Part shown: in pieces, positions 4,039 through 33,885 of the stretch | Layout: each line of letters opens with the position of its first letter | How positions within the stretch are numbered: the stretch's first letter is position 1 | Origin: Gammaproteobacteria bacterium | GTDB lineage: Bacteria > Pseudomonadota > Gammaproteobacteria > UBA9339 | Reading direction: 5' to 3' | NCBI GenBank assembly: GCA_023133095.1 | Contig: JAGLXC010000372.1 | Span: 1 to 35,913 of the forward strand | Length of the DNA: 35,913 nucleotides | Program-made: the position numbers and the translations under genes | Notes under the pieces: generated by a model | The model's input: the letters and a program-made list of their open reading frames with translations, nothing else | Database searches by the model: none | Told to the model about the DNA's origin: nothing

Positions 4039-4073
4039 AGTATACTACCCATTACATTAAAGTATAATGTCAA
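4039..4073 (-). promoter_or_regulatory. Late promoter, TTGACA-N23-TATACT, for connector operon
   Basis: TTGACA is at 4073-4068, the spacer is 23 bases, TATACT is at 4044-4039, and the ATG begins at 4032 after 6 bases. The -35 starts three bases after the U-tract of an intrinsic terminator, so one unit ends and the next begins almost at the same place. Confidence 0.72.
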
Positions 4074-6791: not shown

Positions 6792-6826
6792 ATATTACTA
6801 TTATTGCTTATAAATAAAAATGTCAA
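6792..6826 (-). promoter_or_regulatory. Late promoter, TTGACA-N23-TAATAT, for protease-capsid unit
   Basis: TTGACA is at 6826-6821, the spacer is 23 bases, TAATAT is at 6797-6792, and the ATG follows after 7 bases. The sequence GCGC just upstream of TTGACA matches the promoter at 2614-2648. Confidence 0.7.
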
Positions 6827-8494: not shown

Positions 8495-8529
8495 ATTCTA
8501 CTAGCTTTAATGATTACTGAAAATGTCAA
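8495..8529 (-). promoter_or_regulatory. Late promoter, TTGACA-N23-TAGAAT, for lysis unit
   Basis: TTGACA is at 8529-8524, the spacer is 23 bases, TAGAAT is at 8500-8495, and the ATG of the holin-like gene follows after 8 bases. The -35 lies 4 bases downstream of the stop codon of the kelch-repeat gene. Confidence 0.65.
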
Positions 8530-8533
8530 GCAA

Positions 8534-11500
8534 TTAAGCTGTTACTGTGTTGATGCTACTAATGTTTGCCTTAGCAACTCCGTCTACAGAGGCTATGTTA
8601 GCTAATACCGCCCCATTTATAGACAATATATTTGATACCACTGCACCGGCTGTAGAAAAGTCTGCCACGCTCTCTGCATTACCACCATATGAGGTGCCTA
8701 TACTATCCCCAGTAATAGTACCAGTTACCCACTCTTGCCAGTGGTAATCTGTGGCAGTTGTTAGGCCGGTTACTCCTATACTTGCGTTTATATATATCTT
8801 AGGATCTAGCTGTGCCCAGTCCCAGTTAGCCTCATTTGCATCTGAAAAATCAAACTCCCAAGTGTTGGCTCTTGTATTAAAGCTAAGAGCATCAGCCTCT
8901 CTACCTCCAAATACAATATACCTGTCGTTTGTTGGATCTAAAAAGCATGCGTGTGAGCGCCTAGTTGTAGGGCTTGTTGTTGGCGTTAGTACACTACCAA
9001 ATGAGTTACCGGCTGTATTAAATACCCATGTATCATTTTTGTGGTTAGTACCGTCATAGCCACCAAAGCATATTACCTTGCCGAGAGCCTCGTCGTACCT
9101 ACAAGTCATACCACGCCTTGCATCTGGCCCTGTTGCCCTTGTTACCCATGCCTCGCTACCTTGTGTTGCTAGTGATACATAGTCGTGCTCGTTTACAAAT
9201 GAGCTTACACCTGTACCACCACAAAGTATATGCATGCGCCCATTTGTTTTGTCATACCAATACGCTGGTTGCCTTTTACCACTTGGTACAGTACCAGTAG
9301 GTGTAAGCTCTAGCCATGCGCCATCTGCACTGCCGGCAAAGTCTAGCTCCCATAAATCATTATCGTAAGTACCGGCATGGTCACCACCAAACATAACCAT
9401 GCGGTCATTATCCTCATCATATACAGATGCTTGCAACCACCTAGCCTCTGGCTTAGTACCAGTAGGGGCCAGCCTTGTTAGCCTATAAATGCCGTCTGCA
9501 TCAGCCTTTAACTCCCATGTATCATTATAAAATACATTATTACTTGTATTGTTACCTGTTAGGCCACCAAATATAATAAAGCGGTTGCGGTTAGTATCGT
9601 ATACAGCCGTTGCCCCCTCGCGGTTAGCAAAGCCCATCATTGTATCAACTATAGGGTTATACCACTCATCATTGGCAAAATCATATATCCACATCTCATT
9701 AGTGTGCTCTCCGTCTACTAGATTGTCTGAGTTTATCCTTGCATACCCACCAATTATAAGCCCCTCATTCCTGTCTGGGTTGTATGCGTAACCCATAGCA
9801 TCACGCCCTCTAAGGTGGTTATTAAGTACCAGTTGGCCACTTATTACTACTGCGCTTGTACAATCAAATGCCAAGGTGTGTTTTGTATTTTCTACTGAGC
9901 TATCAATACCACATGCAACACAAAACAGCTTATTAAGCGGATCCCAAGCCATACCGGCAGAGGCTACACCGGATGCGCGCTCATCTACCACATCACTCCT
10001 ATCAGTCCAAGCCTCCGTGCCGTCTGTAAGGTCAAGCTCCCATAAGTCCTCTCTATAGTCTGCCGATGCTGTACCAACACGCCCACCATGTATTAGCATG
10101 CGCCCATTGTCTGGATCATATACCGCCATGGCCAACTCTCGTATACTTGGTGCTGTGCCAGACACTCCAGTTAACTCTGTAAATGTTGTTGTGGCTATAT
10201 CAAACTCCCATACATCATTAAGGCGTGCCGTTCCGTTATAACCACTAAATACTATAAGTCGCCCATTTGTCTCGTCTAAGATTGTACAGGGGTCTGATCT
10301 CTCGCTAGGGTTGCCGGCTGTGCCGGTGGCCTTAAGCTCAGTCCATGCTCCGTTTGTCGTTGTAAGGTCAAGCTCCCAGACATCGTTATACCTAGAGGCA
10401 CCAAAGCCACCAAAAAAGTATGCCAACTCATTTGTTTGGTCAATATTACCCCTAGTATTTGAGCGTACTAGCGGTGCTGTACCGGTAGGGGATAGAGTAC
10501 TCCACGCCTCTGAGCCTGCGGTCATATCCAGTGCGTACACATCATTATTATCTGCTGTGTCATATCCACCAAATAGTATCATGCGGTTACCTGCCTCGTG
10601 GTATACAGCAGATGCTAGCCTACGCGCGCTTGGTGCTGTGCCACTCGGTGTTAGCTGTCTCCACTGTGGTTGTGGCGACCATTTTTGCGCCATTGACAAT
10701 ACCCACACCTCATTATTATTGGTAGTACCATCCCAACCTCCAAACATAACAAACTGATCATTGGTTGTATCGTATACCATTACATTAGAGCGCCTTACGC
10801 TTGGTGTGTCTGGGTTATAGGGCATAATGTCCCCTGTAGAGCTCGCCACATCGTTAAAAGCCGTGCCTGTGGCCTCGTGCTCTACTTTCATGGTTAAGTC
10901 CTCTGAGCTCTGGTAACTGGCCACCCTGCCGTCTAGGTATACTGGGTTAGTAATACCCTCATCTGTAGCTAGGGTGCCTCCTGTTGCAACCTTAGTAGTG
11001 TGGTCTGTGGCAAATTGCTCCTCATCTCTAGTAAATGCTCCATAACATGTACCAGTATACTGCGTTAGTGAGTCAAAACTTACCTCTGCGTTTGTAGTAC
11101 CAAGCTCTAATACAGCACTTGCATCGCCACCGTGGGCTTTGGTACTGCGTATGTTGTACTGAAACCTTATTCTATCCCCACAGGCGCCAGTAGCCATATC
11201 TTTTGTTGCTACATTAAAGGTATATGAGCCTGTTGCCGATAGGGTTTGCTCCGCTGTGCCAGTCCATGAGTCTTGCGACACCCCAGATGAGTTAACTCTA
11301 TGACATGTAACCAACAGCTCAAGGTTTGAGTCTGCGGTTGTTACCTCAACTTTTACTGTGATTGTAGTATTCTCCCAATCTGCATTTGATGGTGCATGTG
11401 CGTTAGAGTAAAACCAATAAGAGTTATTGCCACCGTTTGGCGCAGTCACAGTAAGGCTACTTGCGCCCTCTGGCACAGTAGTAAGCGTACGCTGTGTTGC

Positions 11501-11545
11501 GGATAAATCTGAGGCTACTGCCGATGGGTAAAGTAATGTTGCCAT
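8534..11545 (-). CDS. Large kelch-repeat (beta-propeller) protein, probable receptor-binding fibre
   Basis: This 1003-residue protein is the largest in the genome. Residues about 1-190 look like a beta sandwich. About 12 kelch-type units follow, each with a hydrophobic strand, FGG or a variant, a polar loop and a W-x-[LF] strand (for example FVMFGGWDGTTNNNEVWVL and MVMFGGDHAGTYDNDLWEL), enough for about two six-bladed propellers. The C-terminus has short repeats of the type SINGAVLANI, SVDGVAKANI, SINTVTA. Propellers of this type bind glycans or proteins, so adsorption to the host surface is the likely role. It follows a series of fibre-like proteins. Its start overlaps no gene but is one base from the upstream stop. 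Confidence 0.8.
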   Translation of the reverse strand: MATLLYPSAVASDLSATQRTLTTVPEGASSLTVTAPNGGNNSYWFYSNAHAPSNADWENTTITVKVEVTTADSNLELLVTCHRVNSSGVSQDSWTGTAEQTLSATGSYTFNVATKDMATGACGDRIRFQYNIRSTKAHGGDASAVLELGTTNAEVSFDSLTQYTGTCYGAFTRDEEQFATDHTTKVATGGTLATDEGITNPVYLDGRVASYQSSEDLTMKVEHEATGTAFNDVASSTGDIMPYNPDTPSVRRSNVMVYDTTNDQFVMFGGWDGTTNNNEVWVLSMAQKWSPQPQWRQLTPSGTAPSARRLASAVYHEAGNRMILFGGYDTADNNDVYALDMTAGSEAWSTLSPTGTAPLVRSNTRGNIDQTNELAYFFGGFGASRYNDVWELDLTTTNGAWTELKATGTAGNPSERSDPCTILDETNGRLIVFSGYNGTARLNDVWEFDIATTTFTELTGVSGTAPSIRELAMAVYDPDNGRMLIHGGRVGTASADYREDLWELDLTDGTEAWTDRSDVVDERASGVASAGMAWDPLNKLFCVACGIDSSVENTKHTLAFDCTSAVVISGQLVLNNHLRGRDAMGYAYNPDRNEGLIIGGYARINSDNLVDGEHTNEMWIYDFANDEWYNPIVDTMMGFANREGATAVYDTNRNRFIIFGGLTGNNTSNNVFYNDTWELKADADGIYRLTRLAPTGTKPEARWLQASVYDEDNDRMVMFGGDHAGTYDNDLWELDFAGSADGAWLELTPTGTVPSGKRQPAYWYDKTNGRMHILCGGTGVSSFVNEHDYVSLATQGSEAWVTRATGPDARRGMTCRYDEALGKVICFGGYDGTNHKNDTWVFNTAGNSFGSVLTPTTSPTTRRSHACFLDPTNDRYIVFGGREADALSFNTRANTWEFDFSDANEANWDWAQLDPKIYINASIGVTGLTTATDYHWQEWVTGTITGDSIGTSYGGNAESVADFSTAGAVVSNILSINGAVLANIASVDGVAKANISSINTVTA

Positions 11546-14527: not shown

Positions 14528-14562
14528 AGTATAATGCACTATGTGCCTGACAAAAATGTCAA
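14528..14562 (-). promoter_or_regulatory. Late promoter, TTGACA-N23-TATACT, for fibre unit
   Basis: TTGACA is at 14562-14557, the spacer is 23 bases, TATACT is at 14533-14528, and the ATG follows after 6 bases. It begins a unit of about 6 kb reaching to the kelch-repeat gene. Confidence 0.72.
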
Positions 14563-16981: not shown

Positions 16982-17016
16982 ATTGTACCTTTAATGCTAA
17001 TAAATAATAATGTCAA
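16982..17016 (-). promoter_or_regulatory. Late promoter, TTGACA-N23-TACAAT, for portal unit
   Basis: TTGACA is at 17016-17011, the spacer is 23 bases, TACAAT is at 16987-16982, and the portal ATG (16975) follows after 6 bases. The TGA stop codon of the large terminase gene (17015-17013) is part of the TTGACA hexamer. Confidence 0.72.
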
Positions 17017-18638
17017 GTAATGCGAGGCTCTACATCATACACGCTACCCTTGGCCTGCCAAGCTATTATAACAGCCATAAGCAAGTCAAAGTGCCTCGTG
17101 GTAGCCTTAGAGCCCATAGCATCCACCTTGGTGTACTTAACCAACTCGTTAAATAACTTCTCATCATAAAACTCTACATCGCCACGCTTGAGTGCCAACT
17201 TAAAATCTCCCAGAGCCTTGAGCTTGCTAGGCGCTGTGGTTATAAAGCCAAACTTAGGTGTCTCATTTTCTGTGTCTGCATTTTCCATGCGGTATATGTA
17301 CTCATGGTAGTAGTGGCTCTTAAGGGTACTTATAACTGCATGGCCAGTGTTGTTACGCTCCGGTGCCACCAAGGCATTGTTATAGTAGCGCCCCCAGTCT
17401 CCCAGCAATAGGCCAAAGTCATCCGGTGCAATGTGCGCATTGTCATAGCACGCAACAATACGGCTCACAATGTCCACCTCTAGTACAGCACCAGTATTAC
17501 TATCGCGCCCTATACCCTCACTGGTATCGGCCCCTACAACATACACAAAGTCCTCACGCTTAGGCCGGTAGTATCTTAGGCCACTGTCACTCACTCCGGC
17601 ATCCTTAGCCTTTTCTGGCTTAAAGCACTTAGCTATATGATCTTTATTAAAAAATGCATCCCCAAACTTCTCTGGTTGGCACAAATACTCTTGCTCATAA
17701 AATGGCTCGCCCTCGCTAATCTCCTCAAGACTAACCTTGTGCCTGTCTAGTGGTCTACTTAAGTTGGCCCTGCGCGCCTCCTCTTTAGTGTGTGTATATT
17801 TATCTGGCCACAGCAAATTACCATCAGCATCAATCACTGGCTGTATAGTAACCTTAACCCCCTTACTCTCTACAACCTTGTGCACATTGCCGGCCTCGCT
17901 AAGATAGTTACCCAAGTACAGCACCTTTTTGCGTGCCTGTGCCATACCACTTATCGTTGCCCTCATCAGCCTGTATATCTTTTCTGTGATCACTGGGCTG
18001 TCTAGTGTTATATTATTCTCAAAGTCATCCATAATAACCAAGTCCGGCCTCTTTTCTTGCTCAGAGCTACCACGCGTGGTTGTAAGCATGTTAAATGACT
18101 CCAAGCGTATGCCGTGCTTGGTAGTAAATGTGCTCATGGTCTGTTGGCGCTTGGTGTAGTCTAGCGCATCCCTACTAAACTGGTTGCCATACACTCGTAT
18201 GATCTCCGGCTCCAAGAGCATGTTATACACATCGGTAGTAAACTGTGATGCCTTAGTAGCACTCTGCACAATGCCATACTCAAATTGCTCATACAAGATA
18301 GCGTACACCACCTCTGGCTTGGCCGTGGCAGTCTTACCATTCTCTCGCCAACCTACCCAAGCAAACTCTCCCTTGCCCTCTCCAAACATCTTGGTCATAT
18401 CTCGGCCCATGTCTGCATGCATCTCACTGTCATAGTACTTATAAAACTTACTGAAAAACCATTTTTTCCAAATGGCCTTAGTCCAGTCATCATATGCAAG
18501 ATCCCCAGTAGGGGATAAGAGCATCTTAATCTCATGCGGTGTACTCCGCTCAAGCCTGCGTATAATCACATCATAACCGGCAGAGCGCGCCAGTCTCCGT
18601 GTAGTGCGTACTTGCTTAGTCTTTTTTGCCATAATCAT
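17013..18638 (-). CDS. Terminase large subunit
   Basis: The packaging motor ATPase and nuclease, 541 residues. GWRENGKT at 96-103 is the Walker A motif in the form used by terminases, LVIMDD at 200-205 is Walker B, and YLGNYLSEAGNV is in the position of the coupling motif. The C-terminal RNase H-like nuclease starts near VVGADTSEGIGRDSN, with the first catalytic Asp in GAD. Start 18638 (or 18632, MAKKTK) overlaps the small subunit gene by about 20 bases. The stop codon lies inside the next promoter. Confidence 0.93.
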   Translation of the reverse strand: MIMAKKTKQVRTTRRLARSAGYDVIIRRLERSTPHEIKMLLSPTGDLAYDDWTKAIWKKWFFSKFYKYYDSEMHADMGRDMTKMFGEGKGEFAWVGWRENGKTATAKPEVVYAILYEQFEYGIVQSATKASQFTTDVYNMLLEPEIIRVYGNQFSRDALDYTKRQQTMSTFTTKHGIRLESFNMLTTTRGSSEQEKRPDLVIMDDFENNITLDSPVITEKIYRLMRATISGMAQARKKVLYLGNYLSEAGNVHKVVESKGVKVTIQPVIDADGNLLWPDKYTHTKEEARRANLSRPLDRHKVSLEEISEGEPFYEQEYLCQPEKFGDAFFNKDHIAKCFKPEKAKDAGVSDSGLRYYRPKREDFVYVVGADTSEGIGRDSNTGAVLEVDIVSRIVACYDNAHIAPDDFGLLLGDWGRYYNNALVAPERNNTGHAVISTLKSHYYHEYIYRMENADTENETPKFGFITTAPSKLKALGDFKLALKRGDVEFYDEKLFNELVKYTKVDAMGSKATTRHFDLLMAVIIAWQAKGSVYDVEPRIT

Positions 18639-19233
18639 CTGGGTGTAATAATGTGGCAAATGCCCTGCGCTTTTCTATCATATCCTCCTCACTTAACATA
18701 AAGGCCTCATCCTCAGTACCATCTACTCCAGCCTTACCCTCTACATGCTTAAGATAGTTAAGTGCAAACTCTGGGCTCTTATACTCGGCAGTCAACCCAT
18801 AGTGCACCATCCTGCGTGCCTGTAGGCGCATAGTAGCTTTCCACAGTGCGCGCATCTCTCTCAGCTCCGGTACCCTCAGTAAGTAGTTACGCAAAGCATC
18901 GTGGCTAATGCCGGCATTAAGGCAGGCCTCAGCATCACTACCATTAAGCTCCCATACTCCCTTGAGCTTATGGATCACTCCCACTTGGCTCATCCCATTA
19001 AATACCTTTTGGCCACCATTCTTTACCTTAGCTTTTTTGATGCGCTCAATACCTCTCTGGTAATTCAATAACACAATATGCTCTACACTCGCATCTATCT
19101 CTTTACCCTCCAACTTCTTAATATCATGCTTGAGCTGTTTAACCATCGCCTTGTACTCCCTAAGCGCCTTAGTCTCTTTAACAACAAGAGCCTTGGTAGG
19201 CTTTTTATTTTTTTGTGATGTTGCCTTGGCCAT
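18616..19233 (-). CDS. Terminase small subunit (probable)
   Basis: The 205-residue protein has a basic N-terminus with a coiled-coil-like segment (ALREYKAMVKQLKHDIKKLEG), a helix-turn-helix candidate (ACLNAGISHDALRNYLLRVP) and a C-terminal acidic segment. HTH plus oligomerisation helices and its place directly before the large terminase support a DNA-recognising small subunit. It overlaps neighbours by 29 and 23 bases. The sequence is divergent, so the name rests largely on position. Confidence 0.7.
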   Translation of the reverse strand: MAKATSQKNKKPTKALVVKETKALREYKAMVKQLKHDIKKLEGKEIDASVEHIVLLNYQRGIERIKKAKVKNGGQKVFNGMSQVGVIHKLKGVWELNGSDAEACLNAGISHDALRNYLLRVPELREMRALWKATMRLQARRMVHYGLTAEYKSPEFALNYLKHVEGKAGVDGTEDEAFMLSEEDMIEKRRAFATLLHPDDYGKKD

Positions 19234-19414
19234 TGTTAACTTGTTTTCTTATACTACTCTCTACTATATTACAACACTCCTCACATATAGGTGCAATGAT
19301 CTTAACCCCTGTGGGTAGTATCGTTACCACCTCCCTTATAGTAGGTGTGCCACAACTGCACTGCTTGTGCAAAAATGGCGATAGCATTGACTCTTTAGCA
19401 TCTACTACCACCAT
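19205..19414 (-). CDS. Small zinc-ribbon protein
   Basis: The 69-residue protein MVVVDAKESMLSPFLHKQ has CSCG (near 20-23) and CEEC (near 45-48), the two knuckles of a zinc ribbon, with a short beta hairpin between them. It overlaps both the sigma-region-4-like gene (20 bases) and the small terminase gene (29 bases). An in-frame TTG at 19420 is an alternative start. Function unknown; being wedged between a transcription-factor-like gene and the terminase, it could be a partner in late transcription (inference). Confidence 0.6.
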   Translation of the reverse strand: MVVVDAKESMLSPFLHKQCSCGTPTIREVVTILPTGVKIIAPICEECCNIVESSIRKQVNNGQGNITKK

Positions 19415-19706
19415 ACTCAAGTCTTTTTAATACCTTACTTAATACCTGCTCAACTCTCTGCCTTGTTACTATAGTGTCTTTTACACCATTGCGCATCAAA
19501 GCATCTGCTATACGCCTCATACTTACTGGTGGCACTGTTATGTCCATAGTGATGCGCGCTTGCAGTATAGCGTACTCCTCAGTTGTTAGCTCATCTCTTA
19601 TACTGGCCAATTTTGAGCGTACTACATCTCTGTTGCGTTGAAAAGATCTAAATGACTCTATCATGTCTTGGTAGTCTTTTACAAACTCTTTACCATAAAT
19701 ACTCAT
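19395..19706 (-). CDS. Sigma-70 region 4-like / ArpU-type regulator, candidate late transcription factor
   Basis: The 103-residue protein has a helical N-terminus (about 1-38), then LTTEEYAILQARI, SMRRIADALMRNG and TRQRVEQVLSKVLKRL (residues 81-96). The order and spacing match sigma-70 region 4: an LT..E..VL..R helix, an I.EAL turn, and a recognition helix of the R.RV.Q...K.L..L type. Region 4 is the part of sigma that reads the -35 TTGACA. It is adjacent to the terminase genes, where Gram-positive phages keep late regulators of the ArpU/RinA kind. It overlaps the methyltransferase stop by 4 bases. Similarity is from visual pattern only. Confidence 0.5.
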   Translation of the reverse strand: MSIYGKEFVKDYQDMIESFRSFQRNRDVVRSKLASIRDELTTEEYAILQARITMDITVPPVSMRRIADALMRNGVKDTIVTRQRVEQVLSKVLKRLEYGGSRC

Positions 19707-20902
19707 AGGCTTTTATATATATGCTTAATAACTGCTACAGTCCACCCATTACCGAGTGCCTTGTATCTCTGTGTGTTGCTTATGTCTACAAATACATTTT
19801 CTACAGTGCCTAGCTCTGGCACTAATTTATCCACTGCACCAAACGCTGTGTATCTGTCTGGTAGTGTCTGTAGCCTCTCGCACTCTAGTGGTGTTAGTTT
19901 GCGCCAATACAACTCTGTACCCTTGTCTCCTACACTATCCCACTCATGTCTATCGTAACTACCCCTACCACTTGAGTGCATACACTTACTTTTGGCTCGT
20001 ACTACACCCATCTCATGGGTGCCAGCAGTTAGGCAGTTACTCTTATGCCTCATAAGCCTGCCTCGCCTAGTCTTACTATTGATAAAAGTTAGGTCTAGCC
20101 CCTCTCCAGCTTTTGCATCTGCATATCCTTTTTTGGTTGCCTCTGGTACTCGCATAACCATTATATGCTCTTTAGTAAGTCCTGTGGTTAGGCAGTTGCT
20201 TTTGTCATCAGTCCTAGCTACAAGCTCCTTACCTCTGCGTGGCGAAAAATCTTTACCAGTCTTTTTGCGGTGCTCTCTGCGTATTTTCTTAGCCTCCTCA
20301 GTCCTACGCTCTGTGCACATTACAAGATCATCATCCGACTCCAACACATCCTTAAGCAATATCCCTTTATCATCTGGCTGATCGATCTCTCCTATGTTAG
20401 TCCAGTAAAGCCTCTGCCTATTCTGTGCAGAGACTAGAGCACTGTTTATAAGCACTGGCTGTACTCCCAAGGCCTCACTTATGATGTCTTGGTACTCTTG
20501 CCTCATGCGCACATTTTCTAACAAAAACTTTACATCTGGGTTGTATTTGCGTACATTATTTAGTATATCCACAAACTTAAAAAATAACTTACTGCGTGGA
20601 TCATCAAAATTGAGTTGCTTACCTGCAAAGCTAAACCCTTGGCATGGGCTACCACCCTGTATTAGATCTATCTTGCTCCAATCAAAATCATTACTATGTT
20701 GGTGCTCAGCACAATTACAATATCCCCAATGCTCCCAATTCTCTATATCTCCAAGCTGTATCGTGTCTGGGTGTTGGTACTGTGTAATTGCTATGGCGTG
20801 TTTATCTATCTCACTTGCATAATATTTATCTACTGGTATACCCAGCTCTTTTAGTGCTTGCTGTCCGCAACTTATGCCATCAAATAAACTTAGTACATTC
20901 AT
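19703..20902 (-). CDS. C5-cytosine DNA methyltransferase
   Basis: The 399-residue enzyme transfers a methyl group from S-adenosylmethionine to C5 of cytosine. It shows motif I (SLFDGISCGQQAL), motif IV with the catalytic Cys87 in GGSPCQGFSFAG, ENV at 129-131, QNRQRLYW at 160-167, and C-terminal LTPLECERLQTLP and ALGNGWTVAVI (motifs IX and X). The variable region around 180-290 holds two KSNCLT segments and would choose the target. No restriction partner is nearby, so it probably protects phage DNA from host enzymes. It is preceded by a leader peptide and terminator. Confidence 0.93.
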   Translation of the reverse strand: MNVLSLFDGISCGQQALKELGIPVDKYYASEIDKHAIAITQYQHPDTIQLGDIENWEHWGYCNCAEHQHSNDFDWSKIDLIQGGSPCQGFSFAGKQLNFDDPRSKLFFKFVDILNNVRKYNPDVKFLLENVRMRQEYQDIISEALGVQPVLINSALVSAQNRQRLYWTNIGEIDQPDDKGILLKDVLESDDDLVMCTERRTEEAKKIRREHRKKTGKDFSPRRGKELVARTDDKSNCLTTGLTKEHIMVMRVPEATKKGYADAKAGEGLDLTFINSKTRRGRLMRHKSNCLTAGTHEMGVVRAKSKCMHSSGRGSYDRHEWDSVGDKGTELYWRKLTPLECERLQTLPDRYTAFGAVDKLVPELGTVENVFVDISNTQRYKALGNGWTVAVIKHIYKSL

Positions 20903-31601: not shown

Positions 31602-31624
31602 ACTCTATTTTTTAATTATGCTAT

Positions 31625-31679
31625 CCCAATAACATACACACCGCCTTGCAAGTAGTGTGCATGTTATTGGGTGCAAGGC
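31625..31679 (-). repeat. Interleaved inverted repeats in the 5' leader of the replication gene
   Basis: Arm CCCAATAACATACACAC (31625-31641) pairs with GTGTGCATGTTATTGGG (31655-31671). In the minus-strand RNA the single mismatch becomes a G-U pair, so all 17 positions can pair around a 13-base loop. A second pair, GCCTTGCA (31643-31650) and TGCAAGGC (31672-31679), interlocks with it. The connecting loops are 0 and 1 base, so both stems are probably alternatives. The element fills most of the leader between the predicted start of the RNA near 31686 and the ATG. Confidence 0.75.
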
Positions 31680-31692
31680 TAATAACTTCTGT

Positions 31693-31701
31693 AGTATATC
31701 A
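31693..31701 (-). promoter_or_regulatory. Extended -10 promoter TGATATACT for the replication gene
   Basis: TGATATACT fits TGnTATAAT-type extended -10 elements. A TTGCAG and a DnaA box lie upstream, as at the other early promoters, but the -35 spacing is not canonical here. The predicted RNA starts near 31686. Confidence 0.5.
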
Positions 31702-31708
31702 CAAGACC

Positions 31709-31730
31709 TGCAACTTGCACTGTGGATAAC
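31709..31730 (-). repeat. DnaA-box module copy 4: GTTATCCACAG-N5-GTTGCA
   Basis: On the minus strand GTTATCCACAG, TGCAA, GTTGCA, preceded by an A-run as in copies 2 and 3. It lies directly upstream of the extended -10 promoter of the replication initiator gene. Confidence 0.7.
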
Positions 31731-31987
31731 TTTTGTATAACCTGTGTACCATTTTCCTAGTGTCGGGCATATGGTATCTCGGCTAAATCTCGGTAGGGTA
31801 GTGGCTACTTAATCACTCCCCTGCATAAGTAAATAGTCTTACTTGTATAGTACAGTGCACAAGTAGCCTTAAAGGTAGTATACACCGCTTAACTAAGCCA
31901 TATTAGTATACAATTACTTGCACTCCCCCACCCTCTTTATTGGCCATATAAGACCTTTTTGGGTACACACCCCAAGAGGGTAGGGCA

Positions 31988-32443
31988 CTACTCTAGCTTA
32001 ACCTCTGTACCCATCTCTACACCCAACTCTCTAAGCGCATCACTGGCCTCGCGGTGCCAATTTATAAATTGCGTGTCCACTTCTCTCTGTTTATATCTTG
32101 CCCCACTACTCATTAACCTACGCATATTTTGCTTTATAAACTCTTTAGCAACATCATACTTGTGGATCTCCCCATGCTTTTCTATATTGCAGTATGCGCA
32201 CAATCTTGTGGCATTAAATAGGCTATCTGTATACGGCTCCTTACGGCTTATAGCGTGATGCAAGTGCTCTGCCATACCACCACACCTCTGGCACCTCTCA
32301 TACTCGTTACAGTGCCTCAGTAACTCTACTCTATCAAACTCATGGCTCATGCACATAGTATACCACATGAAAAAACAGCCGGAGTATGTCGGCTGTTTTT
32401 TCTTGCTAAGTAGATACCTAGCGAGGGCTGTGCCTAGTGGCAC
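31988..32443 (-). CDS. HNH endonuclease with a terminator in its 5' region
   Basis: The HNH domain begins MSHEFDRVELLRHCNEY (ATG 32350) and has CQRC, HLHH, RLCAYCN, a zinc-supported HNH fold of 120 residues with a C-terminal helical part. The same frame is open back to a GTG at 32443 that is exactly 6 bases after the -10 of a late promoter, adding 31 residues. An intrinsic terminator (32401-32370) lies inside this 5' part. A second TATACT lies 6 bases before ATG 32350. So either GTG is the real start with the terminator read through by coupled translation, or the gene starts at 32350. Confidence 0.75.
   Translation of the reverse strand: MPLGTALARYLLSKKKQPTYSGCFFMWYTMCMSHEFDRVELLRHCNEYERCQRCGGMAEHLHHAISRKEPYTDSLFNATRLCAYCNIEKHGEIHKYDVAKEFIKQNMRRLMSSGARYKQREVDTQFINWHREASDALRELGVEMGTEVKLE
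32370..32401 (-). terminator. Strong bidirectional intrinsic terminator
   Basis: AAAAAACAGCCG and CGGCTGTTTTTT form a perfect 12-base-pair stem with an 8-base loop and T-runs in both directions. It lies only about 40-70 bases downstream of a late promoter start, so it makes a short RNA or acts as an attenuator for the HNH gene. Confidence 0.9.
32402..32443 (-). ncRNA. Possible short structured RNA between late promoter and terminator
   Basis: From the predicted start near 32443 to the terminator the RNA would be about 75 bases. It contains the hairpin GTGCC-ACTA-GGCAC and a second stem CTCGCTA/TAGCAAG with one mismatch, followed by the terminator stem. Three successive stems and a strong promoter resemble a small phage RNA; an HNH leader is the other reading. 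Confidence 0.4.
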
Positions 32444-32449
32444 GCCAAT

Positions 32450-32484
32450 ATAGTATCATAGCTAGGCTTGGTGGCAAATGTCAA
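32450..32484 (-). promoter_or_regulatory. Late promoter, TTGACA-N23-TACTAT, after the distal tail genes
   Basis: TTGACA is at 32484-32479, the spacer is 23 bases, TACTAT is at 32455-32450, and 6 bases later there is a GTG (32443). The -35 directly follows the TAG stop of the preceding gene. Confidence 0.65.
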
Positions 32485-33850: not shown

Positions 33851-33885
33851 ATATTAGCATATTAAACAGTTATGTATATTGTCAA
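33851..33885 (-). promoter_or_regulatory. Late promoter, TTGACA-N23-TAATAT, for distal tail unit
   Basis: TTGACA is at 33885-33880, the spacer is 23 bases, TAATAT is at 33856-33851, and the ATG (33844) follows after 6 bases. The TGA stop of the tail hub gene (33884-33882) lies inside TTGACA, as at the portal promoter. Confidence 0.72.

Follow-up and report, generated by a model that had tools for sequence, protein, structure and literature searches.

The phage genome described here, a stretch of 35,913 nucleotides referred to as the window, contains a class of late promoters in which TTGACA and the -10 hexamer are separated by 23 bases (N23). The range accepted in textbook promoters is only about 15-19 bases. 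The last gene of the early operon encodes a small protein, P0001, that is related to region 4 of sigma-70 as judged by sequence comparison and model prediction; the lines of evidence are weak singly, but they agree. P0001 is the best candidate that the sequence offers for the switch of the late genes, and its role as the putative reader of TTGACA is well supported by sequence comparison. The explanation as a whole, namely that P0001 binds the TTGACA of the late promoters and holds the host polymerase there, giving leaderless late mRNAs, appears somewhat more probable than an even chance.

Late promoters with a 23-base spacer in two phages

The exact sequence TTGACA-N23-TANNNT occurs nine times in the window compared to 0.58 expected occurrences, and none of 100 shuffled sequences reached nine. 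The promoters proposed in a sequence-only reading of this DNA are thus real as a pattern. All nine sites are on the minus strand and in the late half of the genome, and the 12-kb early region contains no exact N23 site. Bare TTGACA is not enriched (15 copies in the window, 19 expected), and therefore the unusual feature is the spacing. When the distances between exact TTGACA and TANNNT on the minus strand were scanned, nine pairs were found at N23 and at most two at any other spacing. The other contigs of the MAG contain no N23 site, the eight matches there having other spacings, and all six N23 matches of a MAG-wide scan fall in the window contig. A literature search on 23-bp promoter spacers gave nothing relevant.

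Two other arrangements of the promoter were considered and rejected. The hexamers at the position of a canonical -10 inside the spacer (N17) are not -10-like, and the position of a second, canonical -35 is only T-rich, with no excess of -35-like hexamers over neighboring offsets.

An ATG is positioned exactly 6 bases after the -10 hexamer in six of the sites, compared to 0.01 expected. With the final T of the -10 taken as -7, the A of this ATG is +1 and TTGACA spans -41 to -36. The sequence of the sites suggests that the N23 late mRNAs would be leaderless.

The site at 989-1023 (TTGACA-N23-TATACT) precedes the tail tape-measure-like gene that spans the junction of the contig ends. The sites at 2614-2648 and 4039-4073 are in front of a 53-aa tail-region gene and a 172-aa head/tail-region gene, respectively. 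The prohead protease gene follows the site at 6792-6826, with its ATG 7 bases after the -10, and a 120-aa gene follows that at 8495-8529, with its ATG 8 bases after. A 305-aa gene is preceded by the site at 14528-14562, and the portal/head-morphogenesis fusion gene by that at 16982-17016. The N23-like site at 32450-32484, the weakest of the nine, lies before an HNH-endonuclease ORF that has a GTG start. The last site, at 33851-33885, belongs to a 149-aa gene adjoining the baseplate-hub gene.

A second phage with such promoters was found by scanning IMG/VR with the DNA pattern alone (TTGACATT-N21-TANANT-N6-ATG) and ranking the loci by how many N23 sites they contain when one mismatch in a hexamer is tolerated. 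The top locus among the matches listed is L235 (IMGVR_UViG_3300026519_000090, 17.8 kb), which has four N23 sites; multiple sites were again found only in L235/L246 by a second pattern scan of IMG/VR, whose matches were listed in full. Among 305 loci, the contig L235/L244-L246 is the only one to have at least three strict N23 sites on one strand and, outside the window, the only one to encode a P0001 homolog. The L235 proteins match those of the window phage at 47% (TerL), 42% (portal), 63% (protease) and 43% (major capsid). The P0001 ortholog occupies the same genomic place and matches at 52% over 83 aa (49% identity in the two-member alignment). The methyltransferase next to P0001 has been swapped for an unrelated one in the relative, and P0001 has been retained.

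All five exact N23 sites of L246 precede orthologs of genes that have an N23 site in the window, namely the portal and protease genes and the genes behind window sites 4073, 2648 and 33885 (66% identity for the last). The chance probability of this gene-by-gene agreement is about 0.01, estimated from a hand count in which 7 of the 14 shared late genes are N23 genes. Only 8-12 of the 23 spacer bases are identical between the window and L246, so the hexamers and their spacing have been kept while the intervening DNA drifted. The consensus of 14 sites from both phages is G.GC TTGACA tTtT ... TAnnAT a....T ATG. The spacing is N23 in 14 of 15 sites and N24 in one, the site at L246:7441 (TTGACA-N24-TATCAT).

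The protein and the N23 promoters are conserved jointly in two divergent phages. Because the second phage was retrieved via the promoter pattern, the protein and the pattern are linked by a single comparison of two genomes; neither the P0001 ortholog nor the gene-by-gene agreement was selected for in that retrieval. Searches of IMG/VR with the terminase or P0001 alone gave no relatives, and those with two-member alignments found only the same contig, L235/L246. Scans of GTDB genomes with the terminase and protease gave no relatives either, and 399 genomes of the MAG's phylum contain none outside the window.

P0001 and region 4 of sigma-70

P0001 (19395-19706, minus strand) is a basic protein of 103 aa with a molecular weight of 12 kDa and a pI of 9.7; its translation is MSIYGKEFVKDYQDMIESFRSFQRNRDVVRSKLASIRDELTTEEYAILQARITMDITVPPVSMRRIADALMRNGVKDTIVTRQRVEQVLSKVLKRLEYGGSRC. 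A helical N-terminal stretch is followed by a C-terminal sigma-region-4-like helix-turn-helix at residues about 40-97. The ORF and the motifs for which it had first been singled out, LTTEEYAILQAR, RRIADAL and TRQRVEQVLSKVLKRL, are present as described. The stop of a C5-cytosine DNA methyltransferase gene (19703-20902, minus) overlaps the P0001 start. On the other side the packaging genes, also on the minus strand, come next: a 205-aa ORF in the position of the terminase small subunit (18616-19233) and the gene of the large subunit, TerL (17013-18632). P0001 therefore has the location of a late regulator just before the packaging genes, as had been pointed out. Family searches with the 205-aa ORF, whose L235 ortholog matches at 32%, gave no match, and its position indicates that it is probably TerS.

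The sequence-only reading had likened P0001 to both region 4 and the ArpU late regulators, and only the first likeness has survived. In hhalign, the comparison of the P0001 family with RpoD region 4 gives 86% (E 4.6e-6), compared to 0.0-0.2% for three other phage protein families used as controls. The P0001 ortholog (L235:12275-12604) matches Pfam Sigma70_r4 (PF04545) with 24.5 bits at a cut-off of 24.1, and also hits the PHROG sigma family (5.5e-4). For P0001 itself, no match to Sigma70_r4 reaches the Pfam cut-off; RpoD_Cterm is its top NCBIfam match (E 0.0036). A PDB search with the joint profile of P0001 and its ortholog gave RpoD and SigA region 4 with E 0.3-1.7, which is below significance, and some chance matches to ribosomal protein L18 rank above them. 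ArpU (TIGR01637) was rejected because hmmscan gave no match to it in P0001 or across the whole window genome.

The recognition helix can be aligned without gaps between RpoD (TRERIRQIEAKALRKL), P0001 (TRQRVEQVLSKVLKRL) and the ortholog (SRQRIEQIIKKTLDKL). R584 and Q589 of sigma-70 are base contacts, and they align with R82 and Q87 of P0001, which are invariant in both phage proteins. RpoD E585 corresponds to Q83 in P0001 and R588 to E86. The turn before the recognition helix is about 8 residues longer in P0001 than in RpoD.

The anticipated helix-turn-helix appears in the AlphaFold predictions. The model of P0001 from its single sequence is poor (pLDDT 57); that of the ortholog, calculated with two alignment rows, has a pLDDT of 81 and shows three helices, ordered as in region 4, after a long N-terminal helix. 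The top five Foldseek matches of the ortholog model in the PDB are chains of SigA region 4 or of sigma holoenzymes, with a probability of up to 0.69, a TM of about 0.56 by target and E 0.6; no match has E < 0.001. Region 2 gave no match in the 103 residues of P0001 in Pfam, PHROGs or NCBIfam. P0001 was consequently rejected as a complete sigma-70 family factor, and no phage partner carrying region 2 was found.

Small basic helix-turn-helix proteins beside terminase genes can be terminase small subunits, and P0001 adjoins the terminase genes. It might then be an ordinary helix-turn-helix repressor or a packaging-site DNA-binding protein that resembles region 4 without reading TTGACA. However, the next ORF is by position a better TerS candidate, the P0001 family matches specifically sigma region 4, and the protein is accompanied by the promoters in both phages, which makes this assignment distinctly improbable.

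How P0001 might read the late promoters

A stand-alone relative of region 4 and a perfect TTGACA at a displaced but fixed distance make P0001 the simplest candidate for a reader of the late promoters, and the strictness of the spacing (N23 in all but one site) argues for direct coupling of the reader to the polymerase. In the proposed mechanism, the sigma-like recognition helix of P0001 would read GCTTGACA-tTtT, the element that spans -41 to -36. P0001 would sit in the groove immediately before the place where the -35 is normally found and keep the host polymerase on promoters whose -35 is weak or absent, and sigma region 2 would open the -10 (TANNNT). Transcription would start at the ATG, or no more than one or two bases away, resulting in leaderless late mRNAs. 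What we infer for the P0001 system is that the protein binds DNA and contacts the polymerase, and that the transcripts are late and leaderless.

AsiA and MotA of phage T4 are not known to be region 4 relatives by sequence, unlike P0001. In T4 sigma appropriation these small phage proteins anchor upstream DNA, and host sigma-70 uses the -10 with a replaced -35 (PMC6755090). The proposed likeness to the window phage consists of a small phage protein, the anchoring of upstream DNA and the retained -10. The T4 MotA box, however, is centered at -30, whereas the window phage has a sigma-like TTGACA at -41 to -36. MotA and AsiA are positioned on both sides of the DNA at T4 middle promoters, and AsiA assumes the role of region 4 on the polymerase, inserting a helix at -37 to -32 (PMC6755090). 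The T4 late factors gp33 and gp55 are phage proteins that take the place of region 4 close to upstream DNA, where gp33 clamps the flap tip helix (PMC7892883).

These precedents, together with the region 4 homology of P0001, are in favor of a sub-model of the same explanation that differs in geometry. P0001 would take the seat of sigma region 4 on the beta flap by an AsiA- (PMC6755090) or gp33-like (PMC7892883) substitution, moving the -35 contact to -41 in a hybrid holoenzyme. The 6-bp shift, however, corresponds to a rotation of about 206 degrees around the DNA helix, and the element would be on a face of the DNA nearly opposite to that of the normal -35, where a protein in the region 4 seat could reach it only with difficulty. 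Plain replacement on the flap is hence the less probable geometry, and by analogy one in which P0001 supplements sigma region 4 from an adjacent position, in a MotA-like or class II-like manner, is favored.

Other known systems differ further. In Bacillus SigO-RsoA the sigma function is split over separate small proteins, and Xpf of PBSX is a sigma-like factor serving a prophage (PMC10141391); both systems include region 2, whereas P0001 is region 4 only. RinA, ArpU and Ltr, the late regulators of Gram-positive phages, act at one late promoter, in contrast to the late promoters found here, which are numerous, dispersed and equipped with a sigma-type hexamer, and P0001 lacks an ArpU match.

If P0001 is indeed the reader, region 4 would be able to act as a detachable, re-positioned module: the -35 word has been kept but moved by 6 bases, and a spare copy of its reading domain has been supplied. 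A promoter code of the sigma type would have acquired a new ruler, and the 12-kDa protein and a 44-base promoter would form a simple two-part system for testing how the spacing depends on polymerase geometry. The larger picture, in which region 4 split off sigma as a free protein and became a relocated, 23-base -35 reader of a leaderless late regulon in an uncultured host, is possible but tentative.

The genome and its host

The likely genes of the window are all on the minus strand, with early genes at about 31.6-19.4 kb. The late genes start at 19.2 kb, extend to position 1 and resume at 35.9-32 kb. Since the junction of the contig ends lies within the tail tape-measure-like ORF, the phage genome is probably complete, in circular or permuted form. 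Its tetranucleotide correlation to the MAG is 0.55, compared to 0.77-0.91 for the other contigs, and Shine-Dalgarno sites precede 3 of 41 genes versus 29 of 56 elsewhere in the MAG. The contig has probably been assigned to the wrong bin, and its composition and scarcity of Shine-Dalgarno sites suggest that the host is probably another, unusual bacterium.

Such a host is the basis of the main rival explanation, according to which the host's own sigma has a -35/-10 spacing of 23 and reads the late promoters alone, P0001 being otherwise occupied, for example as a repressor or packaging cofactor. This is unlikely, because the N23 sites are confined to late genes and phages that share the DnaD-like loader show N17 rather than N23; 80 loci of such phages have neither N23 enrichment nor a P0001 homolog. 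Moreover, we know of no host class with N23 promoter spacing.

The sequence TAGAGTATG is the exact context of seven minus-strand starts (1446, 12420, 23037, 23733, 29961, 30818 and 31601). It occurs 7 times on the minus strand of the window, once in L246 and not at all in 93 kb of MAG sample. The TAG within it is often the stop of the upstream gene, and the context as a whole is possibly a non-Shine-Dalgarno start or restart signal. The 390-base intergenic region at 31602-31990, before the gene of the DnaD-like helicase loader, contains a DnaA-box-like TTATCCACA and several TATACT boxes without TTGACA, and is likely the origin and early promoter region. A 1003-aa protein of the virion region (8534-11545, minus) consists mostly of Kelch repeats (PF24681, E 2e-79), which are unusual in a phage tail or fiber protein.
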